Source: a bacterium (GTDB taxonomy: Bacteria > DYJV01 > JALVYZ01). Taken from it: 35,277 nucleotides of DNA. The stretch is from NCBI GenBank assembly GCA_027037705.1, contig JALVYZ010000237.1, positions 1-35,277 of the forward strand, written 5' to 3'. A program made the translations under genes and the position numbers. The notes beneath the pieces were generated by a model. The model did not search any database, was not told the origin of the DNA, and was given only the letters and a program-made list of their open reading frames with translations. Within the stretch, counting starts at the first letter, position 1. Every line of letters starts with the position of its first letter. Of this stretch, positions 7,549-25,194 are shown piece by piece.

Positions 7549-8064
7549 GACATACTCAAAAGAGAACTGAAAGAATTTTATCAGCAAAGTCTTGTACTCT
7601 CTTTACTAGCTCGCTTCTGACATACTCAAAAGAGAACTGAAAGTAGTAATGACTCTCAACGGGTTCATGAGCCTAAGTATATCGCATGACGAGACATACT
7701 CAAAAGAGAACTGAAAGTATACCGAGCAAGAAAGCAACAATGTAGGGATTAGTAAGCGCCCGACATACTCAAAAGAGAACTGAAAGTCGAGGTACACGAT
7801 GAGCTTCATACCCGACTCTTTTACCTTTAGACATACTCAAAAGAGAACTGAAAGGGAACAGGGACGCGGGGCTTGCGGCCTCGTCGAGTGCGGAGCCCGA
7901 CATACTCAAAAGAGAACTGAAAGGTAGTATCTGGCCGATGGCGGCTCCTGGTAGATAGTCGGTGCCGAATGACATACTCAAAAGAGAACTGAAAGCATCA
8001 CTGTAGTTCTCCGTGCCCCTCTTCTTACATATCTCCAGCGACATACTCAATAGAGAAGTGAAGG
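7549..8064 (+). CRISPR. CRISPR array 1 (8 repeats, 7 spacers)
   Basis: Repeats of 25 bp start at 7549, 7619, 7693, 7762, 7830, 7899, 7971 and 8040. The first seven are identical, beginning GACATACTC and ending GAACTGAAAG. Spacers are 43-49 bp. The last copy has three changes, the usual sign of the leader-distal end, so the array reads rightward from leader 1. A 24-25 nt repeat without a strong hairpin is typical of crenarchaeal I-A/III loci, where one Cas6 often serves several effector types; cas6 is not in this window. Spacer targets cannot be identified here. Confidence 0.98.
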
Positions 8065-8427
8065 TCACCGTTGGGTTGACTTTGCTGGTATTCCTGGCAT
8101 CTTTCTTGGACATGTCTATGTTTGATTCAGTAAGGAATTTAAAGAAGTAAATACGGGAACAAGATTTGCGTGTCGAGTACTATTATTCGGTCAAGGTGCC
8201 TGGAAGAGGATTGTAAGGCTTGGCTCTGCTGGATTCTATAGCGTGTCGGTCTTACTGAGCTAAGTTTACGAATGCGGAGAAGGGGACGAGCAGGGCGGGA
8301 TAGGAGTTTAATTATGGGGAAATCTGTAGGGGGCTTGTGTAGATAGATGTTGGTTTGGGGAGTAATGCTGAGGAACTGGGGGATAAGGGGTATTGGTGGC
8401 GCTGAGGAGTTCGTGTGCGACCGTTAT
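8065..8427. other. Gene-free DNA after array 1
   Basis: About 360 bp between the degenerate last repeat and the end of the minus-strand gene at 8428. It holds no supported gene. At 8205-8217 it has AGAGGATTGTAAG, one mismatch from the 3' half of the array-3 repeat (AGAGAATTGTAAG), possibly a relic repeat or chance. The right half is G-rich on the + strand and C-rich in the sense of the minus-strand gene, so it may act as that operon's 3' region. Confidence 0.5.
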
Positions 8428-9861
8428 CTATATTATCTTTATCTTTATATTGTCTGTGTTTTCTGCGAGGCCTATGGCGAAGGGGTAGACTGTTTGTGAG
8501 GCTCCCTGTAGCAGGGCGCAGACTTGCTCTCCTCTGTTCTCCGGGGCTCTATTGATGTGTTCTGCGACTTGTTTCCCCATGTACTCGTTTAGGTAGGGGT
8601 CGCTGTGTGTTAGGGGGAATATGTAGTAGTTCTTGCCCCTGTTCTTATTCTTTTTATTCATTATATCTACTGTGTTCTGGAGGTTTAGGAGCGTGTACGG
8701 CGTCCAAGCGATGTATAGTGGTTTTTCTCCGCCCAGTATCCTCCAGAGTAGCTCAACCACGTAGCCCGATGACTGACCCGTGAGCGTTATTACGGGGATG
8801 CATTTGTCCTCAACTATGTCGCCTAGTCCCTGTACGATGATGCTTAGTCTCCCGATAAGGGGCTCAGTCCTAATATCCTGTACTTGGAAATCCCTTACTC
8901 CGAGGAAATCGAGTACTTGTTTGTATATTGTCTTCTCGATTTCTAGTAGCTTGTTCTTAAGTTCTTCTAGCGAGTGCGTGGTCTTCTTTAGTACCTTTAG
9001 TACTTCCTTGGGGTTCCCGCCTCTATCTATTAGTGGTATTTCTTCTAGTATTTCTGAGAGATGCGAATACATCGATGTCATAGAATACATGTGCTCTAGG
9101 TATTTTGCTGCATCTAGATTCTCAGGCTGGATATCAGTAGGCGCTTCATCTCTTTTATCGAGTAGTTGTCTGATAGGGTCCGCGGCTATGCTGTGTAGTA
9201 GCTCGCCGCCTAGTGTCCCTCCCCACTTATAATGGAGTATGTTCACTAGGTAGTAGGTGACAAGGTCTATGAATAGGGCCATAATGCCCTTGGCGGCGGC
9301 ATCTACACTTACTTCTCCTAACATGTAGCCAGCTACTAGGTTCTGAGCAGCTGCTGCGTGGAGCTCGAAGCCTTGCCGGGTTAGGCCGGAGAGCAGGGCT
9401 GTTGCGAGAAGGGCTGCTGGGGGATCGCCGCCTAGCTCACTGGTACAGGTCTCCAGGGCAGCGCTGATACTCTTTCTGCGTATAGCTGCTAGGTTCTTCT
9501 GCACAGATAGGTGAGCCATAGCCATGTATCGCGGGTCATAAATTATATCGAGGGGTTTAGAGATAATATTCGCTATCACCGTGTCGCTAGGCAACGGTGA
9601 GAGAGGATAAGCCCGAAGATATAGTAAGGCCCTATTAAGAGCTATGGCGCCGGAGCCCTTTTCCCTGTGGCCTAGCCTTAGGCCGAGTAGCCTAGCAATC
9701 CTCGAGCCAAGGGCGATATGACCAATGTAGATAGCATCATCACTGCTATCCTTGTATCCTAGGTTATACCTCGTATAGCTGAGATACTTTAACAAGTACC
9801 CGAAGAAGTTTCCTCCACTACTGGGCTTGATTTCCAGGAGAAGCTGCTCCAACGCGACCAC
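8428..9861 (-). CDS. Unknown protein with C-terminal CARF-like domain
   Basis: I do not recognise the 477-residue family. Residues 1-280 are predicted mainly helical, with a hydrophobic helix near LFIDLVTYYLVNIL. Residues about 285-320 look like a coiled coil rich in K, E and L. Residues 354-477 have an alternating strand-helix pattern that recalls a CARF domain: PVITLTGQSSGYVVELLW (first strand, then a TG-x-S loop), KPLYIAWTP (second strand), and CALLQGASQTVYPF followed by a short final strand. CARF domains bind cyclic oligoadenylates made by Cas10. RQGFELH in the helical part fits the loose HEPN R-x5-H spacing, but this is weak. It is second in an operon, 13 bp after its partner. The start is GTG 9861 or the nearby TTG 9852, which lies better behind GGGAGGT. 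Confidence 0.6.
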   Translation of the reverse strand: MVALEQLLLEIKPSSGGNFFGYLLKYLSYTRYNLGYKDSSDDAIYIGHIALGSRIARLLGLRLGHREKGSGAIALNRALLYLRAYPLSPLPSDTVIANIISKPLDIIYDPRYMAMAHLSVQKNLAAIRRKSISAALETCTSELGGDPPAALLATALLSGLTRQGFELHAAAAQNLVAGYMLGEVSVDAAAKGIMALFIDLVTYYLVNILHYKWGGTLGGELLHSIAADPIRQLLDKRDEAPTDIQPENLDAAKYLEHMYSMTSMYSHLSEILEEIPLIDRGGNPKEVLKVLKKTTHSLEELKNKLLEIEKTIYKQVLDFLGVRDFQVQDIRTEPLIGRLSIIVQGLGDIVEDKCIPVITLTGQSSGYVVELLWRILGGEKPLYIAWTPYTLLNLQNTVDIMNKKNKNRGKNYYIFPLTHSDPYLNEYMGKQVAEHINRAPENRGEQVCALLQGASQTVYPFAIGLAENTDNIKIKII

Positions 9862-9874
9862 ACCTCCCGGTTTA

Positions 9875-11197
9875 TTATTTACAGGAAGCGATTCTTCGCA
9901 AGGCGTCGCTGTCGCGGCCTAGACACCTAATGTACAAATGGTACGAGGTGTCCTGGGGTACTCTGAGCCGTCCTTCCTCGTCAACTACCTTTTTTACGTA
10001 GTTAGACGCCTTCATTGACTCAAACATCTTTCCTATATTGTTATTTTTAGTGTTTTTGTTGCTCGTTCTACTTAGTGCTATGAGGGTCTCGGGTATAAGT
10101 ACGAAGCATATATGCTCTATCCCCTGTATCCTCGTCAGGGTGCATATAATATTGTTTAGGAGTTGCTTGGAGTAGTCGTAGAGGGGTAGGAGATACACTG
10201 TCCTCGGCTTATAACCTGCTATAAGATCTCCTAGCTTGTCTTCCCTGTACTCTGAATCGATATTGGCAATGCATGCCTCCATATGGTGTCTATTTCTTAG
10301 CTCGGACTCTATTGTCTCCGATGACTCTTTTATGAGCTCGTTAGAGGCTATGAGTATCCTTAATACTCTTAGTGCTTTCGCCAGCCTAGCCGCCACGTCT
10401 ACTGCTTTGTGTATGGGTTTTTCCTCCGCAGATTTTTCCTCTGTGGATGACTGAGCAGCGGCTCTACGGTACTGTGGCAAAACCACTAGCACTCCTTCAT
10501 CAGCCTTGCTGATTTGCTTGGCCTCCTCGACAGCGTCTTGGATGAAATCGCTGGGTATGCACTCGTGGAGCCTGAGAGGATCCTTGCATGCCTTGTCGCC
10601 TTGGCCTCCTCGTTGACCAGACCGGAGTATCTCGGCTAAGTCACTCATAGCGCGCTCAGAGAGCTCGCTATTACTGAATAACAGCATGTAGTGTAGCGCG
10701 TTGACTAGCTCCGGGCAGCACTTGGCTTCCTCGAAGAACTGGTTTACGAGGGCTTTTTCCAGCCCCCCCTGCCCACTACTGTTTTCTTGTAGGCAGCACT
10801 TAAGGAGCTGCTCGAAGGAGTCGGCTGGCAGCCTTACCGGGGTTCCTAGGGGCAGCTGCTTATTGAAAGCATCTCTGTGCTCACTCTTGAGCATGTAGAC
10901 CGGGCTAAGCCCTAGGTCGGGGTCGCGTGCCGCAACCTTCCGTGTCTCATTAGCTCCGCTGACCTCTTCTACTAGCAAGTAGGTGTGAAATCCGTTCCCG
11001 CAGTCAAGCTCTACTATTAGGTCTATTTCGCGTAGTGCCTCGCTGAGAATATAGGCGAGCTGGGGAGGAAAGACGTTCACAGATGGTGCGCAGTAGGTTA
11101 CTTTGTACCCCAGTATAGTGCAGTCACTATTCGAGGTAGACAACGCTCTGCAGCCTCTCTTCCTATACCCCTGGTCAAAAATATAAATACTTTCCAC
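9875..11197 (-). CDS. Unknown CRISPR-island protein, possible N-terminal CARF-like fold
   Basis: A 440-residue protein I cannot place in a family. It begins with strand MESIYIFDQG. After helix PPQLAYILSEALREI comes DLIVELDCGNGFHTYLLVEE (D65, G69), which resembles the D-x-T-H-G strand-loop of Csx1/Csm6-type CARF domains; the match is only in pattern. The middle is cysteine-bearing and helical. The C-terminal half has strands VLVVLPQY and TVYLLPLYDYS. It leads a two-gene operon with the CARF-like gene at 8428-9861. The GTG start at 11197 is preceded by GAAGAGAG. Between a type I-A and a type III-A operon, a role in cyclic-nucleotide signalling or as an effector is the best guess, not a demonstrated function. 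Confidence 0.55.
   Translation of the reverse strand: MESIYIFDQGYRKRGCRALSTSNSDCTILGYKVTYCAPSVNVFPPQLAYILSEALREIDLIVELDCGNGFHTYLLVEEVSGANETRKVAARDPDLGLSPVYMLKSEHRDAFNKQLPLGTPVRLPADSFEQLLKCCLQENSSGQGGLEKALVNQFFEEAKCCPELVNALHYMLLFSNSELSERAMSDLAEILRSGQRGGQGDKACKDPLRLHECIPSDFIQDAVEEAKQISKADEGVLVVLPQYRRAAAQSSTEEKSAEEKPIHKAVDVAARLAKALRVLRILIASNELIKESSETIESELRNRHHMEACIANIDSEYREDKLGDLIAGYKPRTVYLLPLYDYSKQLLNNIICTLTRIQGIEHICFVLIPETLIALSRTSNKNTKNNNIGKMFESMKASNYVKKVVDEEGRLRVPQDTSYHLYIRCLGRDSDALRRIASCK
11177..11189 (+). promoter_or_regulatory. TATA box for the gene at 11228
   Basis: AAAATATAAATAC is a good archaeal TATA element. It puts transcription start near 11210, about 15-20 nt before GTG 11228. It lies inside the first codons of the divergent gene on the other strand. 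Confidence 0.55.
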
Positions 11198-11227
11198 TCT
11201 CTTCTAGATACCTTTCTCGGTGCAGGT

Positions 11228-11656
11228 GTGAGCGAAGTGCCAAAGGCAATAGTTATTGGAAGGCATAGGATGATGCCAGCCCAGGTAGAGGAGCTCCGAG
11301 AGAAAGGCATAGACGCGATCGAGCAGGTAGCGAAGATAGAAGAGGACGAAATACCGCAGCTCGTGGAGACGTGGGCCAGGAACGATGTGAGATACGTAGT
11401 TATCCAGGCACTACCACTAGCACTCCTATACAAGCTGTTCCGGGAGGCAAGGAAAGCAGGCATAGATCTAATAATAGCTTGGATGGATACAGTCGCGGTA
11501 ACAGAGGACGAGGAAGAAGCAAGGAAACTAGTCCAGGAAAAACCTGATAGGAGAACTTACCTCAAAGCACCAGGCGACAAAGCCATAAGAGTCATCGAGC
11601 ACAGGAAATGGATGAAGATAAAAAGGCTAGAAGTAGAGCTAGAACCCCTACAATAG
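11228..11656 (+). CDS. Small protein resembling Csx16/Csx20-type ring nucleases
   Basis: A 142-residue single-domain protein. Strand AIVIGRH (7-13), then helix MPAQVEELREKGI; later strand YVVIQALPLALLYKL (56-70); then LIIAWMDTVAVTED and the basic C-terminal EHRKWMKIKRLEVELEPL. The plan of a short strand ending in (S/G)RH, a helix, then a hydrophobic strand leading into xLPxxLL recalls small CRISPR proteins of the Csx16/Csx20 group, several of which cut cyclic oligoadenylates. That match is by pattern only. Its place beside CARF-like genes and a GGDD Cas10 would suit an off-switch for signalling. It is transcribed alone on the + strand and converges with the ATPase operon, whose last stop lies 5 bp away. 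A generic phage-type small protein is the alternative. Confidence 0.5.
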   Translation: MSEVPKAIVIGRHRMMPAQVEELREKGIDAIEQVAKIEEDEIPQLVETWARNDVRYVVIQALPLALLYKLFREARKAGIDLIIAWMDTVAVTEDEEEARKLVQEKPDRRTYLKAPGDKAIRVIEHRKWMKIKRLEVELEPLQ

Positions 11657-11661
11657 GACAA

Positions 11662-12363
11662 CTAATCATCGGCAAAAACAACGCAAACCGGGCCAACATC
11701 GCTGCCTAGCTCGATATACTTAACCCCACCATTCTCTTCCATTATGCTGCTACACAGCGAGCCCTCCCTATCACAGAAAAGGGCTACACTGATACCAGCA
11801 CGGAGCCTCCCATACATGTTTCTGAGCCCATCCACTATACACTCTATAGCGCTGATAACTCGTTGGCACTTGTCGCTATGCCTAGCTCCCCTATAGCACC
11901 GCTGAACCATGTTGACGAGATCCCTGCACTTGATACGAGGGTTAAACAAGCAAATAGTATTCTCCTTTATAACGAATTCCCCTAGCAGGGACACTACTCT
12001 TCCAATGAACCCTAGTTCATCCGGATAAGTTTTGCATATATATTGGACTCTCTCGAGACAGCGAGCCGCCAGCTTAGCGGACGAAGCAGCTTCTCCAAGA
12101 TTAGGGAAAATTATTGCAGCACCATAGCCTCTAGGAGACCCTGCAGTATATGCCTGGGTCACTTTTACCAGTTTCCATAAACCTTTTGACCAGTCTTTGC
12201 CGCTGAATATTTTGTTAAGTGATTCGCAGGCTTCACGAGCATAGTTCTTATCAATCCTGCAGTCCTGTGCTGAGGGGTCGCTGTGCTTGTTGCACAGGTT
12301 AAACACATCTAGGTCAATGATGTAGACGTAGTTCTCGGTAATGTCTCTATTGGGGTTGGTCAA
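11662..12363 (-). CDS. Unknown protein with degenerate palm/GGDEF-like layout
   Basis: The 233-residue protein matches no family I can name. Its N-terminal strand VYIIDLDVFNLCNK (D17, D19) looks like the metal-binding first strand of palm polymerases and cyclases (GGDEF, Cas10). After a helical stretch comes SPRGYGAAIIFPNLGEAASS (77-96), which follows the spacing of a GGDEF hairpin (R-x-GGDEF-x-I-x-x-P), but the acidic residues are replaced by YGAA. RAGISVALFCD further on fits the later core strand. If this reading is right it is a catalytically dead or altered palm domain, perhaps a nucleotide sensor. It is the last gene of a three-gene operon and overlaps the ATPase gene by 17 bp, which implies coupled synthesis and probably a complex. 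Confidence 0.5.
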   Translation of the reverse strand: MTNPNRDITENYVYIIDLDVFNLCNKHSDPSAQDCRIDKNYAREACESLNKIFSGKDWSKGLWKLVKVTQAYTAGSPRGYGAAIIFPNLGEAASSAKLAARCLERVQYICKTYPDELGFIGRVVSLLGEFVIKENTICLFNPRIKCRDLVNMVQRCYRGARHSDKCQRVISAIECIVDGLRNMYGRLRAGISVALFCDREGSLCSSIMEENGGVKYIELGSDVGPVCVVFADD

Positions 12364-13531
12364 AGCTCTTTTCCTCCGAGGAATGCTGCGAGAGGGCTAG
12401 TGCCTCGGCGAGAGCAAAGGCGGCATAGGGCCTCTGCTCGTAGCGGAAGGCCCTCTTTGCGCGGCTGAAGCGAGCGTAGTACACTGTAGCGTTGAAGCGG
12501 GATGCACCGCTAACAATGTAGGGCGAATGGGTAGTTAGGACAACCTTAACTTCCTTCCCGTTGCCTTGTAGTAGCCTTATGTATCTGCCAAGGATATATG
12601 CGAATAGGAATTGTTGCGGGGGAGAAAATGCTTCCTCGGGCTCCTCTATAACCGCGACTATTGTATTCTCCCTCTGCGCGAAGACATAGGGCAGAATGCC
12701 TAGCAGCAAGTAGGACGCCACCGACGAGGAAACCACGTCCGGGGGCACCGTGGCTGTAAGCCTATTGTCTTGTACTAGGAGAGCTAGGCTCCCGAGATCT
12801 ATTGATAGCGCGGGTTTTCCTACGTGGCCCGTATCCGATATGGTTACGTCGACGCTTAGGGGGATAAGGTCCTCTGCGGATATTTTCTCATCAATGTCTC
12901 CCAGTAGCTCGTTAAGTGCGTCCACTGCTCTTTCGATGCTCTCTTCTTGGGCATCTAAGAGCTTCTTCAGTAGCCATGGGTTGGCCCTAGCCTTGTATAT
13001 TAGTGCCTCGGCTAGTAGTGGGTGCATGAAGCCCCGGAGAACATTACCATGGTTCTTGATGTGTTGCTGCAGGTCTTTGCAAAGCTCTTTGAGTTCCTGC
13101 ATCCTGTTTGATTCTTCCTCGGGTATGTACACGGATAAGGAGTCAATCATATTACACAACGTGCCGACATCTTGCTCTATTCCCTCAATGCTCTCACTGA
13201 TGCTTTTCTCGAGGACAAGGCTCTGGCGCAGCACTATGCGGTAATCAGGCGCCATATATGCTACAATATCGCTTCCCAAATCCCCCCTAATTTCCCCGCC
13301 CGCGTAGCATAGGTTGCCGCGCGATGCATGTAGGCATACAGAGGCATTGTCTTTCCGCCATAGTCTATCGAGTTCGTTTACATCCCGGCTGGCAAGAGCA
13401 TATATTGTTCTAGCTATTATAGACTTACCTGTGGAGTTGAAGCCAGCAATCACTGTATAATCGTCCACCTCTAGTTTGAAGTCATCGCCGAAAAGCTTAG
13501 AGCCCGTTACTTCAAGCAACCATTTACCCAT
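12347..13531 (-). CDS. ABC/SMC-type ATPase (AAA_21/OLD-like), probable defence ATPase
   Basis: A 394-residue ATPase of the RecF/SMC/OLD-like group. Walker A is GFNSTGKS (30-37). Residues about 120-200 form helices that could make a short coiled-coil arm. A Walker-B-like VIEEPEEAFSP lies at about 294-304, and the H-loop TTHSPYIVSG has H335. There is no TOPRIM nuclease domain after the ATPase, unlike OLD proteins. Such ATPases are common in prokaryotic defence systems, where they sense invaders or activate a partner. Here both partners are unknown: one overlaps its start by 25 bp and the other overlaps its end by 17 bp. That tight coupling points to a three-component system inside the CRISPR island. 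Confidence 0.8.
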   Translation of the reverse strand: MGKWLLEVTGSKLFGDDFKLEVDDYTVIAGFNSTGKSIIARTIYALASRDVNELDRLWRKDNASVCLHASRGNLCYAGGEIRGDLGSDIVAYMAPDYRIVLRQSLVLEKSISESIEGIEQDVGTLCNMIDSLSVYIPEEESNRMQELKELCKDLQQHIKNHGNVLRGFMHPLLAEALIYKARANPWLLKKLLDAQEESIERAVDALNELLGDIDEKISAEDLIPLSVDVTISDTGHVGKPALSIDLGSLALLVQDNRLTATVPPDVVSSSVASYLLLGILPYVFAQRENTIVAVIEEPEEAFSPPQQFLFAYILGRYIRLLQGNGKEVKVVLTTHSPYIVSGASRFNATVYYARFSRAKRAFRYEQRPYAAFALAEALALSQHSSEEKSFDQPQ

Positions 13532-14028
13532 ACTCCTCTTCCTCGGGGAAACCAGGGAATAACTAGCGGGGAAAGAATAAATACATCTCCAAGGAGTCCC
13601 TCGTTGAGAAAGATGCTGTGTACAATCTGGTGAAGCATCATATCCCTCGCTAGCTCTATCGATGCAGTAAAGCAGCCCCTTCTACGCTTTACCGAGAACC
13701 TCCTACCACCCTCTAGCACACCGTATGCCCTGGTACAGAGGACTAGGCTACTGCACCCAAGCACTATACTCCTCACGCTGGTCTCTGGGCAACGTGAAGG
13801 CTCCGTAAAGACTATCAAGCCTAGTTCTCTACTAGGGCCACACACCCACGTGCTAGGCATGAGAGGAGAGACCCCGGCCTCGATAAGCCTCAGTACAAGC
13901 TCTACGAGGCTCTCTAATCTACTGCATCCAAGTATTGTGAGCCCCCGCTTTACCTCTATGCTGCACTCTGCGAGATGTCTCCCTATGGCTTTGGGCTCTT
14001 CTACGCGGCCGTATACGAGTAGGGGCAC
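13507..14028 (-). CDS. Unknown first gene of the ATPase operon
   Basis: A 173-residue protein with no recognised domain. It is rich in leucine, cysteine and arginine, with short predicted strands (LTILGCSRLESLV, GLIVFTEPS, SIVLGCSSLVLCT) and a C-terminal hydrophobic run ending PWFPRGRGVWVNGCLK. I annotate GTG 14028, which has AAGGA about 6 nt upstream. The frame stays open and protein-like for at least 16 more codons upstream (IIGAKIAGIGIENKDS) but has no ATG, GTG or TTG, so the true N-terminus is uncertain. It leads the operon with the ATPase and the palm-like protein and is divergent from the Csm operon across a palindromic TATA element. Confidence 0.6.
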   Translation of the reverse strand: MPLLVYGRVEEPKAIGRHLAECSIEVKRGLTILGCSRLESLVELVLRLIEAGVSPLMPSTWVCGPSRELGLIVFTEPSRCPETSVRSIVLGCSSLVLCTRAYGVLEGGRRFSVKRRRGCFTASIELARDMMLHQIVHSIFLNEGLLGDVFILSPLVIPWFPRGRGVWVNGCLK

Positions 14029-14600: not shown

Positions 14601-15593
14601 GTGTGTTGCCCCGTGAGCCAGTCTGAGTTCTTCTCTCTGAAGAGGCGTCTCCTGGGCTTCTACGAGTTCGAGCTAAGTGTTAGGGTTAGGACGGGTCTCC
14701 TTATTCGCAAGCCTAGCCAGGCCCAGCTAAGTATAGGCGGCGCCGATGTATGGCCTATGAGTATTGAGCGCTACTATGAGTGCGGCAACGAGAGGCTTGG
14801 TGTAGAGGTGCCGTATATACCTGGCTCGAGCCTGAAGGGGCGTATGAGGAGTCTCTTGGAGCAAGCTCTTGGAACGGAGTACGTCACTACTGATGGTAAG
14901 ATATTCCAGCATGTCCGTAGCATTGATGCATTCTTCCGTAGCTATGTTGATGAAGTAGAGGCGCGCCACAAGTTCATGGAGGATGTCTTGAATAGGTGCC
15001 CGGTTGACGAGGTCTTTGGCTATGCAAGCTTTAACTACTTGCAGCACCTCCGGGGCAAACTACAGCTAGAAGAGAATAGTGCCAAGAAGCTAATGGAGTA
15101 TCTTGCCCCGACACGTCTCTATGTCGAGGACCTCTACCCGGATGAGGGCTATGTGTGCAAGCTCTATAAGCGCCTTGAGCGCCAGGTTTATCTAAGTGAC
15201 TTCTTGGAGGAGAAGCCCGAGAACAGAATCGATAGGTTGACTGCTGCAGCGGATCCTCGTCTCTCTGTCCGCGTTAAGCCCGGTGTAGTGTTCAGGGGGC
15301 GTATACAGCTACTAGTCTATGATAACGACTGCGAGGCTTGTCCCAGCGAGGAGCAGCTATGCGTCGAGAGGAACCTGGGCCTCGTTATCCATGGGCTTAG
15401 GCTCGTTGAGTCCCTGGGCCTCGGTGCTGCTACTAGCCGTGGCTACGGTAGGGTCGGGATTAGTGTAGAGCGGCTAGTGTTCTACGAGGCTCCTGGTCTC
15501 GAGGGGAGAGAGCTACTAGGCAAGCCAACGCCCGTCACCGAGCTAGAGCCCAGTAGCGAGATTGTTGCAGCTGCATGCCCTAGTAAAGGGTAG
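14601..15593 (+). CDS. csm3: Csm3, type III-A Cas7 backbone and target RNase
   Basis: A 330-residue Cas7-family protein. RVRTGLLIRKP (28-38) leads to SIGGADVWPM; D49 in IGGAD matches the aspartate that Csm3 uses to cut target RNA every six nucleotides, so cleavage is probably active. IPGSSLKGRMRSLLE (73-87) is the family signature. GLGAATSRGYGRV near residue 275 is the glycine-rich C-terminal loop. It is longer than bacterial Csm3 (about 220 residues) because of a middle insertion with cysteines (NDCEACPSEEQLC) that may bind zinc. GTG 14601 is annotated; GTG 14613 is an alternative with better ribosome-site spacing. Confidence 0.88.
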   Translation: MCCPVSQSEFFSLKRRLLGFYEFELSVRVRTGLLIRKPSQAQLSIGGADVWPMSIERYYECGNERLGVEVPYIPGSSLKGRMRSLLEQALGTEYVTTDGKIFQHVRSIDAFFRSYVDEVEARHKFMEDVLNRCPVDEVFGYASFNYLQHLRGKLQLEENSAKKLMEYLAPTRLYVEDLYPDEGYVCKLYKRLERQVYLSDFLEEKPENRIDRLTAAADPRLSVRVKPGVVFRGRIQLLVYDNDCEACPSEEQLCVERNLGLVIHGLRLVESLGLGAATSRGYGRVGISVERLVFYEAPGLEGRELLGKPTPVTELEPSSEIVAAACPSKG

Positions 15594-15601
15594 TTGAGGC
15601 C

Positions 15602-16609
15602 TTGAGCACATCTTCTCCGCCGACGAGGCGCTACCTATACGTTGTGGTTGAGTTTAGGTCCCAGTTTAGTAGCTATTCTCCGAGCCTTGCCGAGGGCTAC
15701 ATAGGCTCGACGAGCCTGCATGCAGCCGTAATGGCTGCTGTAGCTATGCTGGGCCACGGCATTAGTGATGGGCTGGCCGAGGCGAGGTTTTCCTCCCTGC
15801 TACCAGTGGCCCGGGGTAGTAGCGGCTACGTTGCTCTCTTTCCCCCGCTACGGCTACCTAGCTATGGCAAGGTTCCCCGCGGCTTCTGGACGCCCCGTGC
15901 AGTATCCCTGGTACTGTCCGTGCTTAGTAGTTGCTCGGGGAGAGGCGCCGATATCGTCCTGGAGAGAGGCGGGGATAACTATGTTGTAAGGTGTATGGAT
16001 GGGGGCGAGTCCCGGGAACTGGTATACTCTCGGGAGACCGGGGTCTTCGCGGCGCCTGGCGAGCAGCTAGATTTTAGGCCACCGGGGTTCCGTAGCGATA
16101 GGCATAGGCTCGTTATCAGCAGGGTTACTTACAGCGCTACGCCCTTCATGATACCAGTTGTTGAGCCTAGGAGCCCGTACTGGTTCGTAGCAGAGCTACG
16201 GAGCGAGCAGCTATGCGGCACCGTGGTAGAGGCGCTGAGGCTAGCCGAGCACCTCGGAATGGGGGCTCATAGGAGCATAGGGCTCGGGAGAATAAGGATA
16301 ATTAGCTATGAGTGCACAGAGTCGCCGCCAAGCTTCCTAGCAGGTAGCCGGGGAGGCGGCATCGGGGTATCACTGGGCCTCCTCTACCCCGAGCAGGGGA
16401 GCTGTAGTGTCTACTACGGCGAGACTGCCTTGTTCGGTGCTTATCGGGGCTACGGCGGTGTGGTGATTAGCTTCCGGAGGCCCCTGGTAAGGGCACTTGC
16501 CCCCGGCAGTATTGTTGGAACCGATTGCAGGGGGCGGGTCATTAGGGGCAATGGTTATCCCTACGTGTATTCGTTCAATCCCATTGTGTATCCGGTTGCC
16601 CCTGTGTAG
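15602..16609 (+). CDS. csm4: Csm4, type III-A Cas5-like subunit
   Basis: A 335-residue RAMP protein placed between csm3 and csm5. It has an RRM-like start (YLYVVVEFRSQFSSY), a Cas5-type helix entry (GYIGSTSLHAAVMAAVAML), and a glycine-rich loop GMGAHRSIGLGRI near residue 220 that contacts the crRNA 5' tag. Csm4 caps the crRNA handle and anchors Cas10. The ending, with YSFNPIVYPV, is typical of the family's last strand. The TTG start lies 8 bp after csm3. Confidence 0.85.
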   Translation: MSTSSPPTRRYLYVVVEFRSQFSSYSPSLAEGYIGSTSLHAAVMAAVAMLGHGISDGLAEARFSSLLPVARGSSGYVALFPPLRLPSYGKVPRGFWTPRAVSLVLSVLSSCSGRGADIVLERGGDNYVVRCMDGGESRELVYSRETGVFAAPGEQLDFRPPGFRSDRHRLVISRVTYSATPFMIPVVEPRSPYWFVAELRSEQLCGTVVEALRLAEHLGMGAHRSIGLGRIRIISYECTESPPSFLAGSRGGGIGVSLGLLYPEQGSCSVYYGETALFGAYRGYGGVVISFRRPLVRALAPGSIVGTDCRGRVIRGNGYPYVYSFNPIVYPVAPV

Positions 16610-16624
16610 CGAGGCATAGGAGCC

Positions 16625-17746
16625 ATGGAGCAGAGTAGTTATAGGCTATTGCTGAGACCCCGTACACCGCTCCACGTAGCCTCCGGGGAGAAGACGGTCA
16701 TAGGCATAGACTCGGTGATACACTACGGGAAGCTCTACGTAGTGGACGTTGAGTGCACTGCGAGAATATATGCAAAGCTCTACGGCGCCGAGGCCCTCCT
16801 AGCCAGTAACGCCCGAGCCATAGACCTCTTTAGAAGAGTTCTCGGCCGATACAGGCCCGGGGTTCTTAGCTGCACCCCCTACCGCCTAGTAGTCGGGCTA
16901 AGAACGAGAACGCCACCCCGTGGCGCCGAGGTCTCGCTTCCACAGAGCACCCTAGTACCGGGCTCGAGCATTAAGGGCGCTCTACGCACGGCACTACTCT
17001 ACGCCCTCGTGGACGCCGAGCCTAGGGAAGCCTTGGAGAGGATTAGGAAAGGGGTATCCAGGATAGTCCCGGGCCAGCCCCGAAGCCTACTAGGAGCCGC
17101 TGACCCCGTGGAACAGCTCCTAAAAGGCTCAAAGCCCCACGGCAGGGGTAGGTTCATCTACGATGCTGCCCGCCTCCTCGCAGTTAGCGACCCCCTGCGC
17201 CACAGGGCCTCCCTAGGGCTCTACGCTTTTCGGACGATACACGTTAACGACGGCCGCCCGGTTAGCCTAGAGTACGTCGTCGCCCTGGACCCCGGCGCGG
17301 AGATAGAGTATGAGCTGAGGCTCTACAAGCCCTCCTACAACACGCCTGTGAAGCAGCCTTGGATAAAAAGCCTACAGGAAAAAGACAAGACAATAAGCAT
17401 CGATACCCTGCTCCGGGGCCTCGCCCTGTTCTCGGAGACCCAGATAGCGAGCGAGCTCGAGAGAATAGGTGAGCGCTTCCCGCGGTACAAGAGCTTCCTA
17501 GAAGACCTGGGGAAAATGAGAAGCAGGAACTGTTTTCCACTACGCCTCGGCTACGGCGCAGGCCATGCATCGAAGACCCTCCTACCATGGCTGAGGCGAC
17601 GCGACCCCGGGCTCGCCAAGCGGCTCGAGGAGCTACTCTCGCGGCACTATGGCCGCGTATGGGATAGTCTCACAGATACCTTCACCGATCACAACGGCTC
17701 CCTCCTCGGCGTGGGCTGGGCCACACTCTGCATAGAGGAGAGGTGA
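16625..17746 (+). CDS. csm5: Csm5, type III-A Cas7-like head subunit
   Basis: A 373-residue RAMP protein. It begins YRLLLRPRTPLHVASGE, the usual Csm5 opening (TPLHIGSG-like). STLVPGSSIKGALRTALLYAL (108-128) is the conserved loop-helix, and LRLGYGAGHASKTLL near residue 310 is the C-terminal glycine-rich element. Csm5 caps the 3' end of the crRNA. Its stop codon is TGA 17744-17746, overlapping an ATG (TGATG) that would be the natural start of cas10 but leads to a stop after seven codons. Confidence 0.88.
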   Translation: MEQSSYRLLLRPRTPLHVASGEKTVIGIDSVIHYGKLYVVDVECTARIYAKLYGAEALLASNARAIDLFRRVLGRYRPGVLSCTPYRLVVGLRTRTPPRGAEVSLPQSTLVPGSSIKGALRTALLYALVDAEPREALERIRKGVSRIVPGQPRSLLGAADPVEQLLKGSKPHGRGRFIYDAARLLAVSDPLRHRASLGLYAFRTIHVNDGRPVSLEYVVALDPGAEIEYELRLYKPSYNTPVKQPWIKSLQEKDKTISIDTLLRGLALFSETQIASELERIGERFPRYKSFLEDLGKMRSRNCFPLRLGYGAGHASKTLLPWLRRRDPGLAKRLEELLSRHYGRVWDSLTDTFTDHNGSLLGVGWATLCIEER

Positions 17747-17752
17747 TGAGCC

Positions 17753-20752
17753 CTGGTTGGCAGGATTGAGGAGGTAGCGCTACACGGCCTACTACACGAT
17801 ATCCATAAACCCCTTGCTAGGCTGCTTCAAGTCTATAGAGGATGCGACATAGGAGAAATAGCTAAGAGGATAGCTGAAACGGCGCGGGGCTATGAGCTAG
17901 GAGACGAAGATATAGAGGGCTTCAAGGACTACGTAATCAAAGTCCTAGAGAAGGTTGAGGAGAATGGCCACGGGCTGCGCAGAAGCCTCGTCAACGAGTT
18001 CGCCAAGGATTCGAGCGAGCCTAGGGACTTGATAGAGGTCGCTATAAGGCTTGCCGACGAGGAGTCGGGGCTAGAGGACATAACGACCAGGATTGCGAAC
18101 TCCTCGCTAGAACCGCATCTCACTCCATTCCTCAACCCTCTCGCCCTGCTATTCGCCTCCGGGTTCTCCAGCCACGACGTTGCCGAGCTAAACCTAGATG
18201 ACGCCAGCATAGTGATGAGTAGTGATAAGCGTAAGTGCCTATTAATGACTAGCCAGTGGTGCAGGCAGAGACTACAAGAGTTCCTAGAAAGGGTTGAGAG
18301 AAGCGATACAGCGGCACTAAGAAGCATCCTTGGCGGCAATCACTGGCACCCAGTGAGGCCGCTTAGGTGGAAAGAGCCTAGCAGAGCCGAGGAGATCTCA
18401 GCGCTCTACGGTGCCCGAGGCTATAGGGAGGCAATCGTGGACTACACTAGTGTCGCGGCAAGCTTGTTGGCGGGGCTCTATAGGCTCAGAGCTGCTACGA
18501 GGAGCCTAGGCAACCGCCTCGACACTGTTAGGTCGCTGCTAGGGGTGCTCCGTCGCAGCCTCCTCCTGGTACCCTCGAGTATCCGTAAGGGCTCCTCGGG
18601 GCTAGCCCTGCCAGAGATAAGCCTCTATGCCCATAGCCGCGTAGTGGCTGGCTTCGCCTCCGCCATAGCTGCTACTGGGAGGAGCCCGGGCTGCTACAGG
18701 CTTGTACTTCTAGACATAAACGGTATACAGCGCTACATAACTAGGCACCGCGTAGTAAGCGCAGCGGTGAAGGCTTTTCGTGGCAGAAGCCTCCTAGTAG
18801 AGCTCGCCCAGAGAGCCGCTGCGAACTTCGTCTTATCGAGACTGGGTCTTGCCTGGAGCAGTGTCTACACATACGAGGGAGGCACGGTATCGATAATAGC
18901 GCCGTGCACCGAGAAGCTCGAAGAAGTACTAGGAGAGCTCGAGGAGAGGTTCAGCGAGGAGTTCGGGGGATACCTCGGAGTAACAGCTGTTGCTAGCCGG
19001 GAGCTAGAGGTAGGGCCGGGCACGTATAGCTCGAGGTACAGGTTCCGCCCCGAGGACGAGAACAGCTTTGCCCACGTCCTCTCGGAGACGCAGCGCATGC
19101 TCTCAGCCAGGAAGCTCAAGAGACAGACACATAGCCTAGAACAACTAGGGCCCGAGGAGCTCGAGTACGACCCCCTCGTGGAGGAAAACACGCCCCGGAG
19201 AGAATACGTGGGAGTAAGCGGTGAGCTAGGCGCTGAGTACTGGAGACTAGTCTCAAGCGACGACGCGGCAGCAGCCATAGTCGAGCACGGCGGGGTTTCA
19301 AGGGATACTCATAGAGCCCTCGTAGCTGGCAGTAGCGCCCCAAACCTGTTCATGATAATAGAGCTCTACTTGAGCGGCGATGGCTGCGAGAAAGCCATCG
19401 AGGAACTAGCAGGGAGGGTAGCTGAGGCACTACTCGGCTCCAAGGAGAGACGCTACGATATAATCCCTATTCATCGCGGCCAGGAGCTAAGAATAGGGAT
19501 TATAGAGCTACCAAAACTATGCACGGTATACATACTGTTAGCGTTGCACACGCTTAGCCCGGAGCAGAGCATTGACTGGAGACTCGTGGAGACAATCATG
19601 GGTATGCTGGCTGAGAAGCCCCTAGATGGTAAGGAGCTAGGGATAGAGGAGGCGCTCATAGTGTTCTCGTCGGTGAACATTGTTGAGGAGTTCCTACCCA
19701 GCGAGGAGACGGTGAGAAACCTGGATAACCATGTAAGGAGCTGGCTGAGAGGAACTAGGTACAGGATAGGCTTCGACTGGGTAGCAATCAATACACGCTA
19801 CCCCCTAGTGCAGGGAGAACACCGGGTCCAGATAAGGAGCCTAGACGAGGCAGCAGAGGCCACCGGGCTCATAGCCCTAGTCAAGCTCGATGCAGACAAC
19901 GTGGGCAACACCGTATTCTACATGGCATCCTCTCCCTCGAGGCTAGCAACGCTAAGCGAGATCCTAGCAACTACCTTCGGGCTCCTAAGCTACAAGCTAC
20001 TAGACCTAAGCAGCAACTACAACGACAGTGTATACGTCGTGTTCATAGGAGGCGACGACGCAGCCTACTTCGGCGAACTAGTAGCAGCAATGCAGTACGC
20101 CACGGACATAACGCGCCTAGCAAACTCGATGCTCCCAGGACTCACGATAAGCGGGGCAATAAGCATAGAGGAGCCAAAGCTCCCCCTTTATCTAGCTTAT
20201 TACCACGCACTAGAGCGCCTAGAAAAAGCAAAGAACGAGCCAATAATAGTACTAGGAGGCAACGAGCCAAGAGGCATAGTAGCAATAACCCAGATGACAA
20301 AGCCAATAACACTCTGCCTCAGAGAAGACGACACAAAGAAACCCGTAAAGATAGAGACAATAAGCTGGCAAACACTAGAAAACACACTACGAGAACACCA
20401 ATCAATAAGCGACGAGACCCTATGGAAGAGGACAGCAAAGCTAGTAACCCTAGTAGCGGACACGCTCGCAGAGATAATGAAGAAGCAAAAATGCAGCCTC
20501 ACCGGCACAGAGACAGCTAGAACCCTAATAGCGTATACATACTGGCGCGAAAGAATAGGCCAAGCACCAGGCCAAGAAGAAAACAACGTAGACAAAATAC
20601 TAGAGAAAATAACGGGCACCAGGCCGAGATACCCACCAAGCCAGCCAAACAACACCAAGGAACGATACAGGCTCTACACAATACTACAACTAGCCAGAAA
20701 CCCGCTCAACATAATATACCAGCTCCTAAGACTCCGCAGACAAACAACTTAG
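17753..20752 (+). CDS. cas10: Cas10/Csm1, type III-A large subunit and cOA synthase
   Basis: A 999-codon frame with the Cas10 layout. HD pair H15-D16 (HGLLHDIHK) supports single-strand DNase activity, though the usual glycine after HDI is histidine. The first palm domain has LVLLDINGIQRYI (D321). The second has LVKLDADNVGN (D713, D715) and the intact cyclase motif GGDD at 766-769 (VVFIGGDDAAYF), which makes cyclic oligoadenylates. The N-terminus is odd. The frame has no ATG, GTG or TTG between the stop at 17747 and TTG 18029, yet this stretch encodes the HD motif. I start at CTG 17753, six bp after AGGTGA. Removing one C of CCC 17751-17753 would join ATG 17746 to this frame and give a normal start, so an indel or read error is possible. 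The last 450 bp are G-poor. Confidence 0.92.
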   Translation: MVGRIEEVALHGLLHDIHKPLARLLQVYRGCDIGEIAKRIAETARGYELGDEDIEGFKDYVIKVLEKVEENGHGLRRSLVNEFAKDSSEPRDLIEVAIRLADEESGLEDITTRIANSSLEPHLTPFLNPLALLFASGFSSHDVAELNLDDASIVMSSDKRKCLLMTSQWCRQRLQEFLERVERSDTAALRSILGGNHWHPVRPLRWKEPSRAEEISALYGARGYREAIVDYTSVAASLLAGLYRLRAATRSLGNRLDTVRSLLGVLRRSLLLVPSSIRKGSSGLALPEISLYAHSRVVAGFASAIAATGRSPGCYRLVLLDINGIQRYITRHRVVSAAVKAFRGRSLLVELAQRAAANFVLSRLGLAWSSVYTYEGGTVSIIAPCTEKLEEVLGELEERFSEEFGGYLGVTAVASRELEVGPGTYSSRYRFRPEDENSFAHVLSETQRMLSARKLKRQTHSLEQLGPEELEYDPLVEENTPRREYVGVSGELGAEYWRLVSSDDAAAAIVEHGGVSRDTHRALVAGSSAPNLFMIIELYLSGDGCEKAIEELAGRVAEALLGSKERRYDIIPIHRGQELRIGIIELPKLCTVYILLALHTLSPEQSIDWRLVETIMGMLAEKPLDGKELGIEEALIVFSSVNIVEEFLPSEETVRNLDNHVRSWLRGTRYRIGFDWVAINTRYPLVQGEHRVQIRSLDEAAEATGLIALVKLDADNVGNTVFYMASSPSRLATLSEILATTFGLLSYKLLDLSSNYNDSVYVVFIGGDDAAYFGELVAAMQYATDITRLANSMLPGLTISGAISIEEPKLPLYLAYYHALERLEKAKNEPIIVLGGNEPRGIVAITQMTKPITLCLREDDTKKPVKIETISWQTLENTLREHQSISDETLWKRTAKLVTLVADTLAEIMKKQKCSLTGTETARTLIAYTYWRERIGQAPGQEENNVDKILEKITGTRPRYPPSQPNNTKERYRLYTILQLARNPLNIIYQLLRLRRQTT

Positions 20753-20830: not shown

Positions 20831-20854
20831 TACATCTCTATATACATCTCTATA
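20831..20854. repeat. 12-bp tandem duplication
   Basis: TACATCTCTATA occurs twice in direct tandem in the AT-rich gap between cas10 and the leader-distal end of array 2. Function unknown. The rest of 20753-20870 is AT-rich with no gene. Confidence 0.8.
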
Positions 20855-20870
20855 GATGATTATTTCAGCC

Positions 20871-21578
20871 CCCTCAATTCTTTATTGAGTTAATCTCACC
20901 AACCCGCTCATCCACTACCCAGAGCCAAGTCTTGTTAACCTTACAATTCTCTATTGAGTTAAGCCCAGTACACTAGAGACCCTGTCCTGCGACAAGATAG
21001 CTTACAATTCTCTTTTGAGTTAAGCGCGTGCGCGGGGCTGTACGGATAGGGATGGAGCCAGGCGTACCTTTCAGTTCTCTTTTGAGTTAAGCTCGTCGAT
21101 GTTGGTCCCGATGATTATCGGTTATTCCGGAATAGCTTTCAGTTCTCTTTTGAGTTAAGCCGTTTCGGAGCTGAAGCTGATCTAGAAATATATCCAAAGA
21201 TGAAAGCTTTCAGTTCTCTTTTGAGTTAAGCGGGAGGAAACCATGTTCGGGAACATAGATTGGAAGAGCTTTGTGATCTTTCAGTTCTCTTTTGAGTTAA
21301 GCAAAGCTGTAAAGGTGTATGCAAAGTATCTCGATTGCTATATTTACTTTCAGTTCTCTTTTGAGTTAAGCACGAGAACGTAGCTCACGATCTAGCATTC
21401 ATGGCTGGGTATGCTTTCAGTTCTCTTTTGAGTTAAGCTCTATCCTAATCGTAGACCGTGCTTCCACAACCTGATACCATCCTTTCAGTTCTCTTTTGAG
21501 TTAAGCTCAGCTATCTCCGATAATCTGTTCTCTAGTGCTATTCTGTCTAGGAACTTTCAGTTCTCTTTTGAGTTAAGC
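20871..21578 (-). CRISPR. CRISPR array 2 (11 repeats, 10 spacers)
   Basis: On the + strand repeats start at 20871, 20940, 21001, 21068, 21136, 21207, 21278, 21347, 21414, 21482 and 21554. Leader 2 is on the right, so the array reads leftward. Read that way, the eight leader-proximal repeats begin GCTTAACTC and end GAACTGAAAG. The two next (21001, 20940) end GAATTGTAAG instead, exactly as in array 3 apart from one base in the second. The most distal copy (20871) is degenerate. Spacers are 36-47 bp. The change of repeat type along the array records replacement of the repeat over time. Confidence 0.98.
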
Positions 21579-21829
21579 TGGTATGGTTTCCTTTTGGATC
21601 CGAATAGTAACTGGTTTGAGGCAATTATTTATGCTTATCGGAACGAGTCTAATTCCCATGCATCAAGCCCTCCGAGACCCTCAAGGCGTTCCCATGGATT
21701 CGCATGGATTCGAAACAATGTTCCCAAGGAGCCTTGCAACTCCACCCACGATGTGTTCCCAAGGGAACCGAAAGAGGAGTTTAAAGGTTAAGACAAACAA
21801 GGCAAACAAGCAATCGGAGAGAATAGTGA
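21579..21829 (-). promoter_or_regulatory. Leader of CRISPR array 2
   Basis: Reverse complement of leader 3. Over the inner 205 bp I see only three base differences between the two. On the + strand it has ATGGATTCG twice (21694-21702, 21704-21712) and TGTTCCCAA twice (21719-21727, 21754-21762). Weaker similarity, including the block around AATCGGAGAGAATAG, runs to about 21829. It directs transcription and spacer insertion leftward into array 2. Confidence 0.88.
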
Positions 21830-21943
21830 TTAGAGCAATGAGGGACGTCGCGGCTAAAGCAGGAAGGGTGGTATATGGGCTGCATTATGGGTTATATGTG
21901 TACCCCTTGTATTTGTGAGGCATATTGTTATTGGTCTTGAGCC

Positions 21944-22130
21944 CTAGTCTACCATGTATCTTACAAATATGTCTCCTACGTGGATGTCGAAGGTGTCTTC
22001 GAATCCTCTTGGCTCCATTTGTGTCGTAGTCTCTGAGAGGCGCTGGATCCGTTGATAAGTGCTCTAGTAGCTCTGGGACCCGGAGCCCATAATGTGCTAG
22101 GAGGTGCTCTAGGGGCTCGTCGCCTAATCT
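21944..22130 (-). pseudogene. Decayed gene fragment between leaders 2 and 3
   Basis: On the minus strand one frame gives a protein-like stretch (GDEPLEHLLAHYGLRVPELL, then EHLSTDPAPLRDYDT) that begins right after a stop and has no start codon. A shift of frame continues it as MEPRGFEDTFDIHVGDIFVR and a stop at 21944. This looks like the remains of one gene with a frameshift and a lost 5' end. I do not recognise the family. The 21830-21943 stretch on its left holds nothing recognisable. Confidence 0.4.
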
Positions 22131-22170
22131 TTACGCTGAAAACGCTAGGGGTCTTGAGCCCTTCTCATCC

Positions 22171-22404
22171 CTAGCTTCTCTCTAGCAGGGTCTTCTTAAC
22201 CTCGTCCAAGTCCACTATCTCGTCGCTCGTCCTTATGGCCTCGGCCTCGTCGGGGAGGGGCTTATCTCCCTCAACGTGTCTCTCAATAATGAGGCGCAGC
22301 ATGGTCTCCAGCTTCTCAAGTCCCTTCTTAATCTCCGTCTCTGCCCGGGTCTCGGAGCTAGACAAGAAAGCAGTCACCCTTCCCTCTGGGTCCTCCGGTC
22401 TCAT
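22171..22404 (-). CDS. Small acidic hypothetical protein
   Basis: A 77-residue charged, helical protein (EIKKGLEKLETMLRLIIERH; acidic C-terminal half ending LDEVKKTLLERS). Size and charge would suit an antitoxin or the remnant of a longer gene, and the decayed fragment at 21944-22130 lies just downstream on the same strand. No family is recognised. ATG 22404 is the only good start. Confidence 0.45.
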   Translation of the reverse strand: MRPEDPEGRVTAFLSSSETRAETEIKKGLEKLETMLRLIIERHVEGDKPLPDEAEAIRTSDEIVDLDEVKKTLLERS

Positions 22405-22709
22405 CTATATTATCTCAATATTCCCTAAAGAGAACCAAGTGCTCCCCAGTCTCTTTGTAGTGGTGGTGTAAGCGTACTAGGCCTTGTATGTGCCGGATAG
22501 GCCAGAGCTTAGGGAATGAACGCGATTTTGTCTCTATTCGTGCTTGCTAGCGCTATCATTAATTTGGTTATTATCGGATAAGGGAGGGATACGGAGGGCT
22601 ATTCTTCCTCTCTGCTTTGGTTATTTCCTCCTCCGGTCTCCTCTCTCATCTCACGTATAACATGCCTAGGGCCTTTGAGATAACTAGTTGAATGCCTAGG
22701 CCCCTGGGA
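22405..22709. other. Gene-free spacer
   Basis: About 305 bp with AT-rich patches (22555-22580) and no supported gene, RNA or repeat. Confidence 0.5.
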
Positions 22710-23240
22710 TTAGGGTAGCTGGTGTTGCCTGGCTTTCTTCCTTATCCAGTCTGTTAGCTCCAGTACCCTCTCTTTTGCTCCCTCCTCGGTCAAGGGGACA
22801 GTGTCGGGGCCGTGGTAGAACCATAGGTGGAGCAGTATTGCCTCGGCCAGTCCCTGGTAAATCTCCTTATCGTTTACTGCCTCCGCGGCGAGGCGCGCTA
22901 CCTCCTCTAGCTTTTGCCTAGCCGAGGGCACTAGGAAGCCTGTCTGGATCCACCACTCTAGCTCCTTTTCCGCCTTCTCCGGGCCCCTCTGCTCCCATGT
23001 CCTCCTTATCCTCTCCTCTATGAGCTGGATCCCGCGGGTAGCCAGTATTAGGCCCAGTAGGGCCCTGTAGGCAGCCCAAGCCTTCTCAGCAGCATCCCGT
23101 ACATCTCCTCTCGAGACTAGGCGGAGCGCCTCCTCGGTGAAGAGTTCGAGATTATCCTTACTCACCTTCTCAGCTAGCCTAGCAGCCGTCCTAAGCCTAG
23201 CAAGTAGATCCCTCAGAGAAACAGACATGGTAGCCAACAA
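22710..23240 (-). CDS. PaREP1-like helical protein
   Basis: A 176-residue all-helical protein. The segment EEALRLVSRGDVRDAAEKAW, followed by AAYRALLGLILATRGI and later AEAILLHLWFYHGPD, matches the PaREP1/PaREP8 style: paired helices starting with a TPR-like GDVxxAAEKAW and a later xxxLHxxFY helix. These proteins are expanded in hyperthermophilic Crenarchaeota and are related to HEPN folds; their function is not settled. It stands alone between the mirrored leaders 2 and 3. ATG 23228, four codons in (MSVS), is an alternative start. Confidence 0.6.
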   Translation of the reverse strand: MLATMSVSLRDLLARLRTAARLAEKVSKDNLELFTEEALRLVSRGDVRDAAEKAWAAYRALLGLILATRGIQLIEERIRRTWEQRGPEKAEKELEWWIQTGFLVPSARQKLEEVARLAAEAVNDKEIYQGLAEAILLHLWFYHGPDTVPLTEEGAKERVLELTDWIRKKARQHQLP

Positions 23241-23393
23241 GCACTCCCCAGGGATCCTCTAGGGCACCAAGACTATTAAGAAATTCGATAGGAATAAGAC
23301 AACCATGTAAAGAAGAGCACCCTACCATCCTCAATCACCTGGAGAAATGCATACCACAACCGGGAAGACAGTAACAATAGCAACACGTCTTTA

Positions 23394-23644
23394 ACACTAT
23401 TCTCTCCGATTATATAATGAGCCCGAATACCTTGACCTTTAAACTCCTCTTTCGGTTCCCTTGGGAACACATCGTGGGTGGAGTTGCAAGGCTCCTTGGG
23501 AACATTGTTTCGAATCCATGCGAATCCATAGGAACACCTTCAGGGTCTCGGAGGGCTTGATGCATGGGAATTAGACTCGTTCCGATAAGCATAAATAATT
23601 GCCTCAAACCAGTTACTATTCGGATCCAAAAGGAAACCATACCA
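23394..23644 (+). promoter_or_regulatory. Leader of CRISPR array 3
   Basis: Mirror-image copy of leader 2. It has TTGGGAACA at 23461-23469 and 23496-23504, CGAATCCAT at 23511-23519 and 23521-23529, then AGGAACACCTTCAGGGTCTC, and AACCATACCA at the repeat junction. The same blocks in the same order occur in leader 1. It faces rightward into array 3. Confidence 0.88.
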
Positions 23645-24180
23645 GCTTAACTCAAAAGAGAATTGTAAGCGTATGAGAACCTAGACCACGTCCCGGAACT
23701 ACTAGAGGCACAGCTTAACTCAAAAGAGAATTGTAAGTGACAGTATAGCAGCCTTGAAGTGACTCTTTGAAAATCCTAGCCTAGCTTAACTCAAAAGAGA
23801 ATTGTAAGTACAAGTGTGGGCGGTCGGGGAGAGTGCTGGTGACTACATCTCGCTTAACTCAAAAGAGAATTGTAAGGTTATCCATTTATCCACGTCTTCC
23901 CCGAAGCTAGTGTTTGGTAGTATCTGCAAATACTCAAAAGAGAATTGTAAGCGAGCTCTGGCTCGTATACCGGCGTCTCGAGGAAGACGTGTAGGACATA
24001 CTCAAAAAAGAATTGTAAGCCGGGTACACCAACTTATCCTTGCAGATGATGCTGCCATCGACGAGTGACATACTCAAAAGAGAATTGTAAGCTTGCACAA
24101 TGCTCGCATGCTCAGTTGATTCCGCTATCTTGTTCCCGTGCTTGGCTTAACTCAAAAGAGAATTAAAAGAGAATTATAGG
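23645..24180 (+). CRISPR. CRISPR array 3 (8 repeats, 7 spacers), mosaic repeats
   Basis: Repeats start at 23645, 23713, 23784, 23852, 23927, 23995, 24067 and 24145. The first four begin GCTTAACTC and end GAATTGTAAG. The copies at 23995 and 24067 begin GACATACTC (as in array 1) but keep the GAATTGTAAG end, and the one at 23927 is a damaged form of that type. The last (24145) again begins GCTTAACTC, has a damaged 3' end and is followed by a partial duplication to 24180. Spacers are 43-53 bp. The array reads rightward from leader 3. Confidence 0.98.
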
Positions 24181-25188: not shown

Positions 25189-25194
25189 CTACTC

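Follow-up and report, generated by a model that had tools for sequence, protein, structure and literature searches.

Mosaic repeats in three CRISPR arrays of a Pyrodictiaceae contig and their probable origin by exchange between leader–first-repeat junctions

New repeats in arrays of clustered regularly interspaced short palindromic repeats (CRISPR) are copies of the first repeat (PMC3396285, citing work on E. coli). The crispr1 array of P. oguniense contains eight repeats with the 5′ motif GTCAAA and five with CCAGAA (PMC3396285, 2012), and the authors of that Pyrobaculum study proposed either recombination or the copying of another array's leader-proximal repeat (PMC3396285). Exchange between loci is also described for Sulfolobus, another crenarchaeal group with multi-array genomes (reviewed in PMC4390879). 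At the integration site, crenarchaeal Cas1 binds a leader-proximal stem-loop and has little sequence requirement (Sulfolobus islandicus type I-A; PMC9456107), with a preference for G and then C at position +1 and for C at position −2 (PMC4574026). Our literature search on gene conversion of CRISPR repeat variants returned no paper, and that on concerted evolution returned only PMC3396285 as relevant. In this study, we analysed the three CRISPR arrays of a contig of 35,277 nucleotides (nt) (JALVYZ010000237.1, assembly GCA_027037705.1; the whole contig is referred to as the window) together with a comparison set of about 30 arrays of related Pyrodictiaceae, a family of heat-loving archaea. The repeats are mosaics, and their 5′ part was probably replaced, together with the proximal leader, by exchange between arrays. 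The 'DR mixing' (DR, direct repeat) of Pyrobaculum is the direct precedent, with the same anatomy of 5′ motif, p, A-rich core, p′ and an 8-nt handle of the CRISPR RNA (crRNA). It was described, however, for two mixed arrays, without leader mosaics, breakpoints or a separation of motif from handle, whereas several genomes and many arrays are involved here. Beyond this precedent, the present arrays reveal how widely the motif varies and that it switches in blocks; they also yield leader mosaics and allow tract ends to be placed within or near the first repeat. In the Sulfolobus case whole spacer–repeat regions move; in the present arrays, which have no spacers in common, exchange appears to affect the leader and a portion of one repeat.

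All repeats of the window were read base by base. A repeat is 25 nt long: it opens with a 5-nt 5′ motif, has the palindromic core ACTCAAAAGAGAA in the middle and closes with 7 nt that form part of the 8-nt crRNA handle. The arrays are of the crenarchaeal type with repeats of 24–25 nt: the spacers are unique, one end decays and a leader lies at the other. Leader ends were assigned from the decay at the opposite end and from the conserved leader. The arrays and their remnants are as follows.

7549..8064, forward strand: CRISPR array 1, leader end at 7549; seven copies of GACAT-ACTCAAAAGAGAA-CTGAAAG and a decayed eighth copy, AATAGAGAA GTGAAGG
8120–8144 and 8193–8217, forward strand: two probable fossil repeats of array 1, with six mismatches each and regular spacing
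20871..21578, reverse strand: CRISPR array 2; eight GCTTA...CTGAAAG repeats on the leader side, two GCTTA...TTGTAAG repeats and a decayed GATTA copy
23645..24180, forward strand: CRISPR array 3; four GCTTA...TTGTAAG repeats, one GCAAAT...TTGTAAG repeat, two GACAT...TTGTAAG repeats and a terminal GCTTA...TTAAAAG repeat

The original prediction, made from the letters of the window, was that two 5′ halves and two 3′ halves occur in all four combinations. The reading bears out the four combinations, as well as the assignment of GACAT/CTGAAAG to array 1, of GCTTA/CTGAAAG to leader-proximal array 2 and of GCTTA/TTGTAAG to leader-proximal array 3. The predicted equality of the distal repeats of array 2 with the leader-proximal repeats of array 3 holds for the copy at 21001 (GCTTA...TTGTAAG) but not for that at 20940, GCTTA ACTCAATAGAGAA TTGTAAG, which differs by one base (AATAG); the decayed GATTA copy lies at 20871. 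Distal array 3 had been described as GACAT/TTGTAAG, which is correct for the two repeats at 23995 (with AAAAAAG) and 24067, but the intermediate repeat at 23927, (G)CAAAT...TTGTAAG, and the terminal GCTTA repeat, which carries an internal slippage duplication (24145–24180), had been overlooked. The motifs of array 3 therefore run from GCTTA through GACAT/GCAAAT back to GCTTA, and runs of repeats that differ in 5′ motif or core within a single array are what 'DR mixing' denotes. The older fossil of array 1 (8193–8217) ends with ATTGTAAG, from which array 1 may formerly have had the other handle. Repeat-like matches with at most six mismatches occur outside the arrays at about 0.15 per kb on the forward strand, so that chance is no concern for the array repeats.

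A core-pattern scan of named genomes led to the Pyrodictiaceae metagenome-assembled genomes (MAGs) JALVSY (G002) and JALVKZ (G003), and a family search added G006, G007, G010, G015 and G019. Apart from occasional single changes, the window, G002, G003 and G010 all have one and the same core, which differs by one or two bases in the more distant genomes; the exact core ACTCAAAAGAGAATTG was found in none of the 214 genomes searched in the order of G002 outside G002's own family. The 3′ part has few states (CTGAAAG, TTGTAAG, ATGCAAG and ATGCAAT), with at least four handles, whereas at least 14 different 5′ motifs occur across the window and its closest relatives. The predicted two-by-two table is thus a small sample of the variation, and the two halves differ in behaviour, the 5′ motif being hypervariable and linked to the leader and the handle changing more slowly. 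The repeat is modular: its 5-nt 5′ motif is hypervariable, its palindromic core invariant and its 3′ handle slower to change. The eight arrays of G010, a genome in one 2.0-Mb contig, have exactly the same core and handle and six current motifs (ctcta, ccata, gctaa, gtcta, ctaga and gataa), and in four of them older repeats carry a motif that another array uses at present. An array of G002 (L102; C9:103-957) consists of ten cctta/ATGCAAG repeats with older, decayed TTGTAAG-type repeats at its end, so that the handle type switched there also. Another (L100; C7) has, in its fourth repeat–spacer unit, a 53-nt spacer that starts with AACTGAAAG directly after a TTGTAAG repeat; AACTGAAAG is the 3′ end of the other repeat type and is possibly a slippage or recombination scar.

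Counted over neighbouring intact repeats in the window and in G002, G003 and G010, 12 of 218 steps are motif switches. Each switch alters two to five of the five motif positions, and none is a single-base switch (0/12). Random scattering of the 41 changed sites gave a mean of 35 single-change steps and a minimum of 23 (20 000 trials). The 5′ motifs change as blocks. Three arrays return to an earlier motif, namely array 3 (gctta, gacat/gcaaat, gctta), L113 (ctcta, gataa, ctcta) and L100 (gctta, gcaaat, gctta). Two ideas about the motif were set aside. A quasi-palindromic relation of the motif to the handle, weighed by eye, fits GCTTA with TAAG but not GACAT, CTAGA or GCAAT, and imprecise leader-side cutting was rejected by reasoning, because the second repeat and not the first would be altered.

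These counts bear directly on independent mutation, by which the motif, being trimmed from the mature crRNA, would mutate freely, arrays would drift apart, deletions would remove the intermediates and shared motifs would reflect array duplication. It is true that variation peaks in the 5′ block, which probably matters little for interference, that internal deletion could in principle remove intermediates, and that stepwise single motif changes occur, though only in the more distant G019. The near relatives lack this outcome, which the original prediction had named as its refutation. The lack of single-base switches, the exact returns in three arrays and the leader mosaics that break at the junction (described below) tell against independent mutation, which was rated as already disfavoured and which we regard as quite improbable. 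Repeat–repeat recombination that moves whole repeat–spacer units would account for the A-B-A orders, and inter-locus CRISPR recombination of this kind has been reported for Sulfolobus (PMC4390879); foreign motifs would then be imported units and not a changed founder. No spacer is shared between arrays among 387 spacers, however, so that wholesale unit transfer is unsupported, and a search for imported units by shared 16-mers yielded two pairs only, both apparently due to chance. The new state always lies on the leader-side run, and array 2 changed its handle with GCTTA kept, which is impossible from the GACAT units of array 1. We consider unit import, too, to be very unlikely.

The leaders and the stretches that flank them are listed below.

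7350..7548, forward strand: leader of array 1, a diverged homologue of the array 2 and array 3 leaders
21579..21788, reverse strand: leader of array 2, the same 210-nt cassette as the leader of array 3
23435..23644, forward strand: leader of array 3, the 210-nt cassette of array 2 with an array-1-like three-site patch
21553..23244, reverse strand: inter-array segment and array 2 leader, 95% identical to G002 C7:14186-15881
24236..26388, forward strand: trailer flank of array 3, syntenic with G002 C7:17847-20000 (89%)

Arrays 2 and 3 are divergent, and their leaders face each other across a 2-kb segment. The two leaders are identical over 210 nt save at −104, −109 and −115 and are unrelated farther upstream. 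Compared with the syntenic region of G002 (C7:14186-15881), array 2 shows about 82% identity within the 210-nt tract, against about 92–99% per block beyond −210. Such raised local identity of paralogous leaders relative to syntenic flanks is, like mosaic informative sites, characteristic of gene conversion between arrays. The shared tract extends into the first repeat, where it covers the 5′ motif and core and breaks off ahead of the handles, which differ between the two arrays. The 5′ motif thus moves with the leader, and each array keeps its own 3′ handle. This pattern is as expected of conversion or crossover between two leaders that ends inside the repeat. The 12-nt patch of three sites (−104 to −115) in the array 3 leader is array-1-like; alone it is weak evidence, and array 2 may have the derived state at some of the sites. 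With G002 as the reference, the inter-array segment lies in inverted orientation to the array 3 flank, which would fit a crossover between inverted leaders. Within that flank, 24312–24705 also matches an array flank of G003 (88%). The G003 array at this flank is uniformly gacat/TTGTAAG, that is, it has the older repeats of array 3, and so fits a later switch of array 3 to gctta.

Leader mosaics were also observed in two relatives, and they support exchange between arrays. A ctaga leader of G002 combines the distal half of the neighbouring cctta leader with the proximal half and motif of a second ctaga leader. One gctaa leader of G010 is the same as a ctcta leader over 200 nt, but its final six bases, together with the motif, agree with those of a third leader, which is likewise gctaa and different elsewhere. 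In the breakpoint tests of the two mosaics, 0/5000 permutations each reached the observed value.

We therefore favour, with a probability of roughly two-thirds (0.66), homologous exchange between leader–first-repeat junctions, by conversion or inversion crossover, that is fossilised by growth at the leader end. This account builds on the block switches, the identity tract, its end within the first repeat and the leader mosaics of the relatives. Arrays in the same cell would exchange at these junctions, the proximal leader and the 5′ motif being replaced together, either by gene conversion or by crossing over of inverted leaders; the latter would turn round the segment that separates arrays 2 and 3. 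The tract would often end in the invariant core, leaving the array its old 3′ handle, and later spacer acquisitions would copy the altered first repeat and thereby fossilise the change in order along the array. The part of the original prediction that had the founding repeat change, with the order kept by leader-end growth, is supported. Array 3 would have been long on GACAT/TTGTAAG and then have gained the leader cassette and GCTTA motif that it has in common with array 2; array 2 would afterwards have altered its handle only, from TTGTAAG to CTGAAAG, the handle of array 1. We infer the direction of exchange, the identity of the donors and conversion as opposed to other repair.

Several observations weigh against exchange at the junctions. 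A donor in the same genome exists for 10/12 switches, where shuffling of arrays among genomes averages 6.6, and 277/5000 shuffles reach 10; this is borderline, and the placing of donor arrays in the genome of the recipient is suggestive only. The source of new motifs such as GCAAAT and CCATA is left without explanation. The mosaic trios of G002 and G010 were picked by eye after inspection, and the identical G010 leaders Xa and Xc+ carry different motifs, so that transfer of a leader does not always bring its motif along. Because the window is a short metagenomic contig with an inverted 210-nt duplication, the inversion may stem from a flip in assembly. The handle switch of array 2 involves two variable sites only and may be conversion from array 1 or two point mutations. 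The originally predicted exchange between arrays is indicated by the 210-nt tract of leader and 5′ motif that ends in the first repeat and by the two leader mosaics, and is less certain for the 3′ half.

A mechanism tied to acquisition would dispense with ordinary recombination. In acquisition-coupled template switching, the 3′ end of the leader would prime gap filling across the first repeat during spacer integration, and the polymerase would switch for a moment to another array's repeat as its template, thereby exchanging short tracts around the junction. The variable block sits exactly at the cut site where gap filling would start, and both the short patches (the last six leader nt and motif in G010; the 12-nt patch at −104 to −115 in array 3) and the slippage scars (the terminal repeat of array 3; AACTGAAAG after the TTGTAAG repeat in L100) would suit it. 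The 210-nt shared leader tracts exceed the gap left by integration, however, and we judge template switching unlikely. More tentatively than junction exchange itself, and less probably than not, the repeat may be seen as an object with two owners. The 5′ motif would belong to the leader and be shuffled between arrays along with it, perhaps while spacers are being acquired; the crRNA handle would belong to the array; and the invariant palindromic core would join the two and act as the crossover site. If this were true, arrays would record their own recombination history beside their infection history.

A short palindrome, CCCAAAAGGG or TCCAAAAGGA, is present at the leader ends, and a change in one of its arms is matched in the other (CCC/GGG, TCC/GGA). 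Position −2 is mostly C and −1 usually A; +1 is G or C in 13/14 motifs, and positions +2 to +5 are free. The palindrome, the C at −2, the usual A at −1 and the G or C at +1 resemble the preference of SsoCas1 (PMC4574026, PMC9456107); in contrast to the Cas1 systems described there (PMC9456107, PMC4574026), the link of Cas1 to the free positions +2 to +5 is here putative. The motif would be free of demands from crRNA function and near enough to be caught up in exchange between leaders, and the handle would be constrained by Cas6 and the effectors. The prediction is that Cas1 requires the two palindromes and the −2 and +1 bases but not +2 to +5, and handle switching inside one array implies that one Cas6 and its effectors accept two handles. 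These results suggest that a repeat is not forever a faithful copy of one founder and that exchange with a sister array can replace part of it, with boundaries placed within and beside one 25-nt repeat. Repeat or leader type is consequently unsafe as a stable label of an array. The last 25 nt of the leader (7524–7548 and the equivalent leader ends) are themselves repeat-like, with ACCCAAAAGGGAACCATACC beside ACTCAAAAGAGAACTGAAAG, and look as though a decayed repeat had become part of the leader.

The window (G000:C237, 1–35277) has a G+C content of 53%, against about 28% in other sampled contigs of the same bin (G000), which encode FtsA/FtsZ/Mur genes of bacterial cell division and wall. It therefore belongs to an archaeon of the Pyrodictiaceae and was wrongly binned with a low-G+C bacterial MAG, and for this reason the search for relatives in the genus, family, order and class of G000 obtained none. 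Cas1 had no match in the bin, which is mostly bacterial with the archaeal genome not in view, so that its absence carries no meaning; none of cas1, cas2 and cas4 was recognised among the scanned open reading frames (ORFs) of the window, the bin-wide search being aimed at Cas1 alone. Cas1 is present in the relatives G002, G006, G007, G010 and G019. The gene setting of the arrays is as follows.

289..960, reverse strand: Csa3-like CARF/HTH regulator
1102..7182, forward strand: type I-A interference genes csa5, cas7/csa2, cas5a, cas3′ and cas3″
3452–4585, forward strand: ORF at the cas8a position within the type I-A block, with no model assignment as cas8a
14601..20752, forward strand: type III-A genes csm3, csm4, csm5 and cas10/csm1
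22710..23240, reverse strand: PaREP1-family ORF between arrays 2 and 3

The first locus is of type I-A, csa5, cas7/csa2, cas5a, cas3′ and cas3″ adjoining an array, and the second is of type III-A, with cas10/csm1 together with csm3, csm4 and csm5. Between them lies a block of ORFs mostly without family matches (8428–14028), including four reverse-strand ORFs (477, 440, 233 and 173 amino acids) with no Pfam or NCBIfam match and, on the same strand, a 394-amino-acid AAA-type ATPase (12347–13531) with weak similarity to defence ATPases; these ORFs are possible accessory defence genes. Elsewhere in the bin, a contig opens with two decayed repeats of the same family as the window arrays (L028; G000:C459:36-121), and a fourth array of this archaeon probably ends there.

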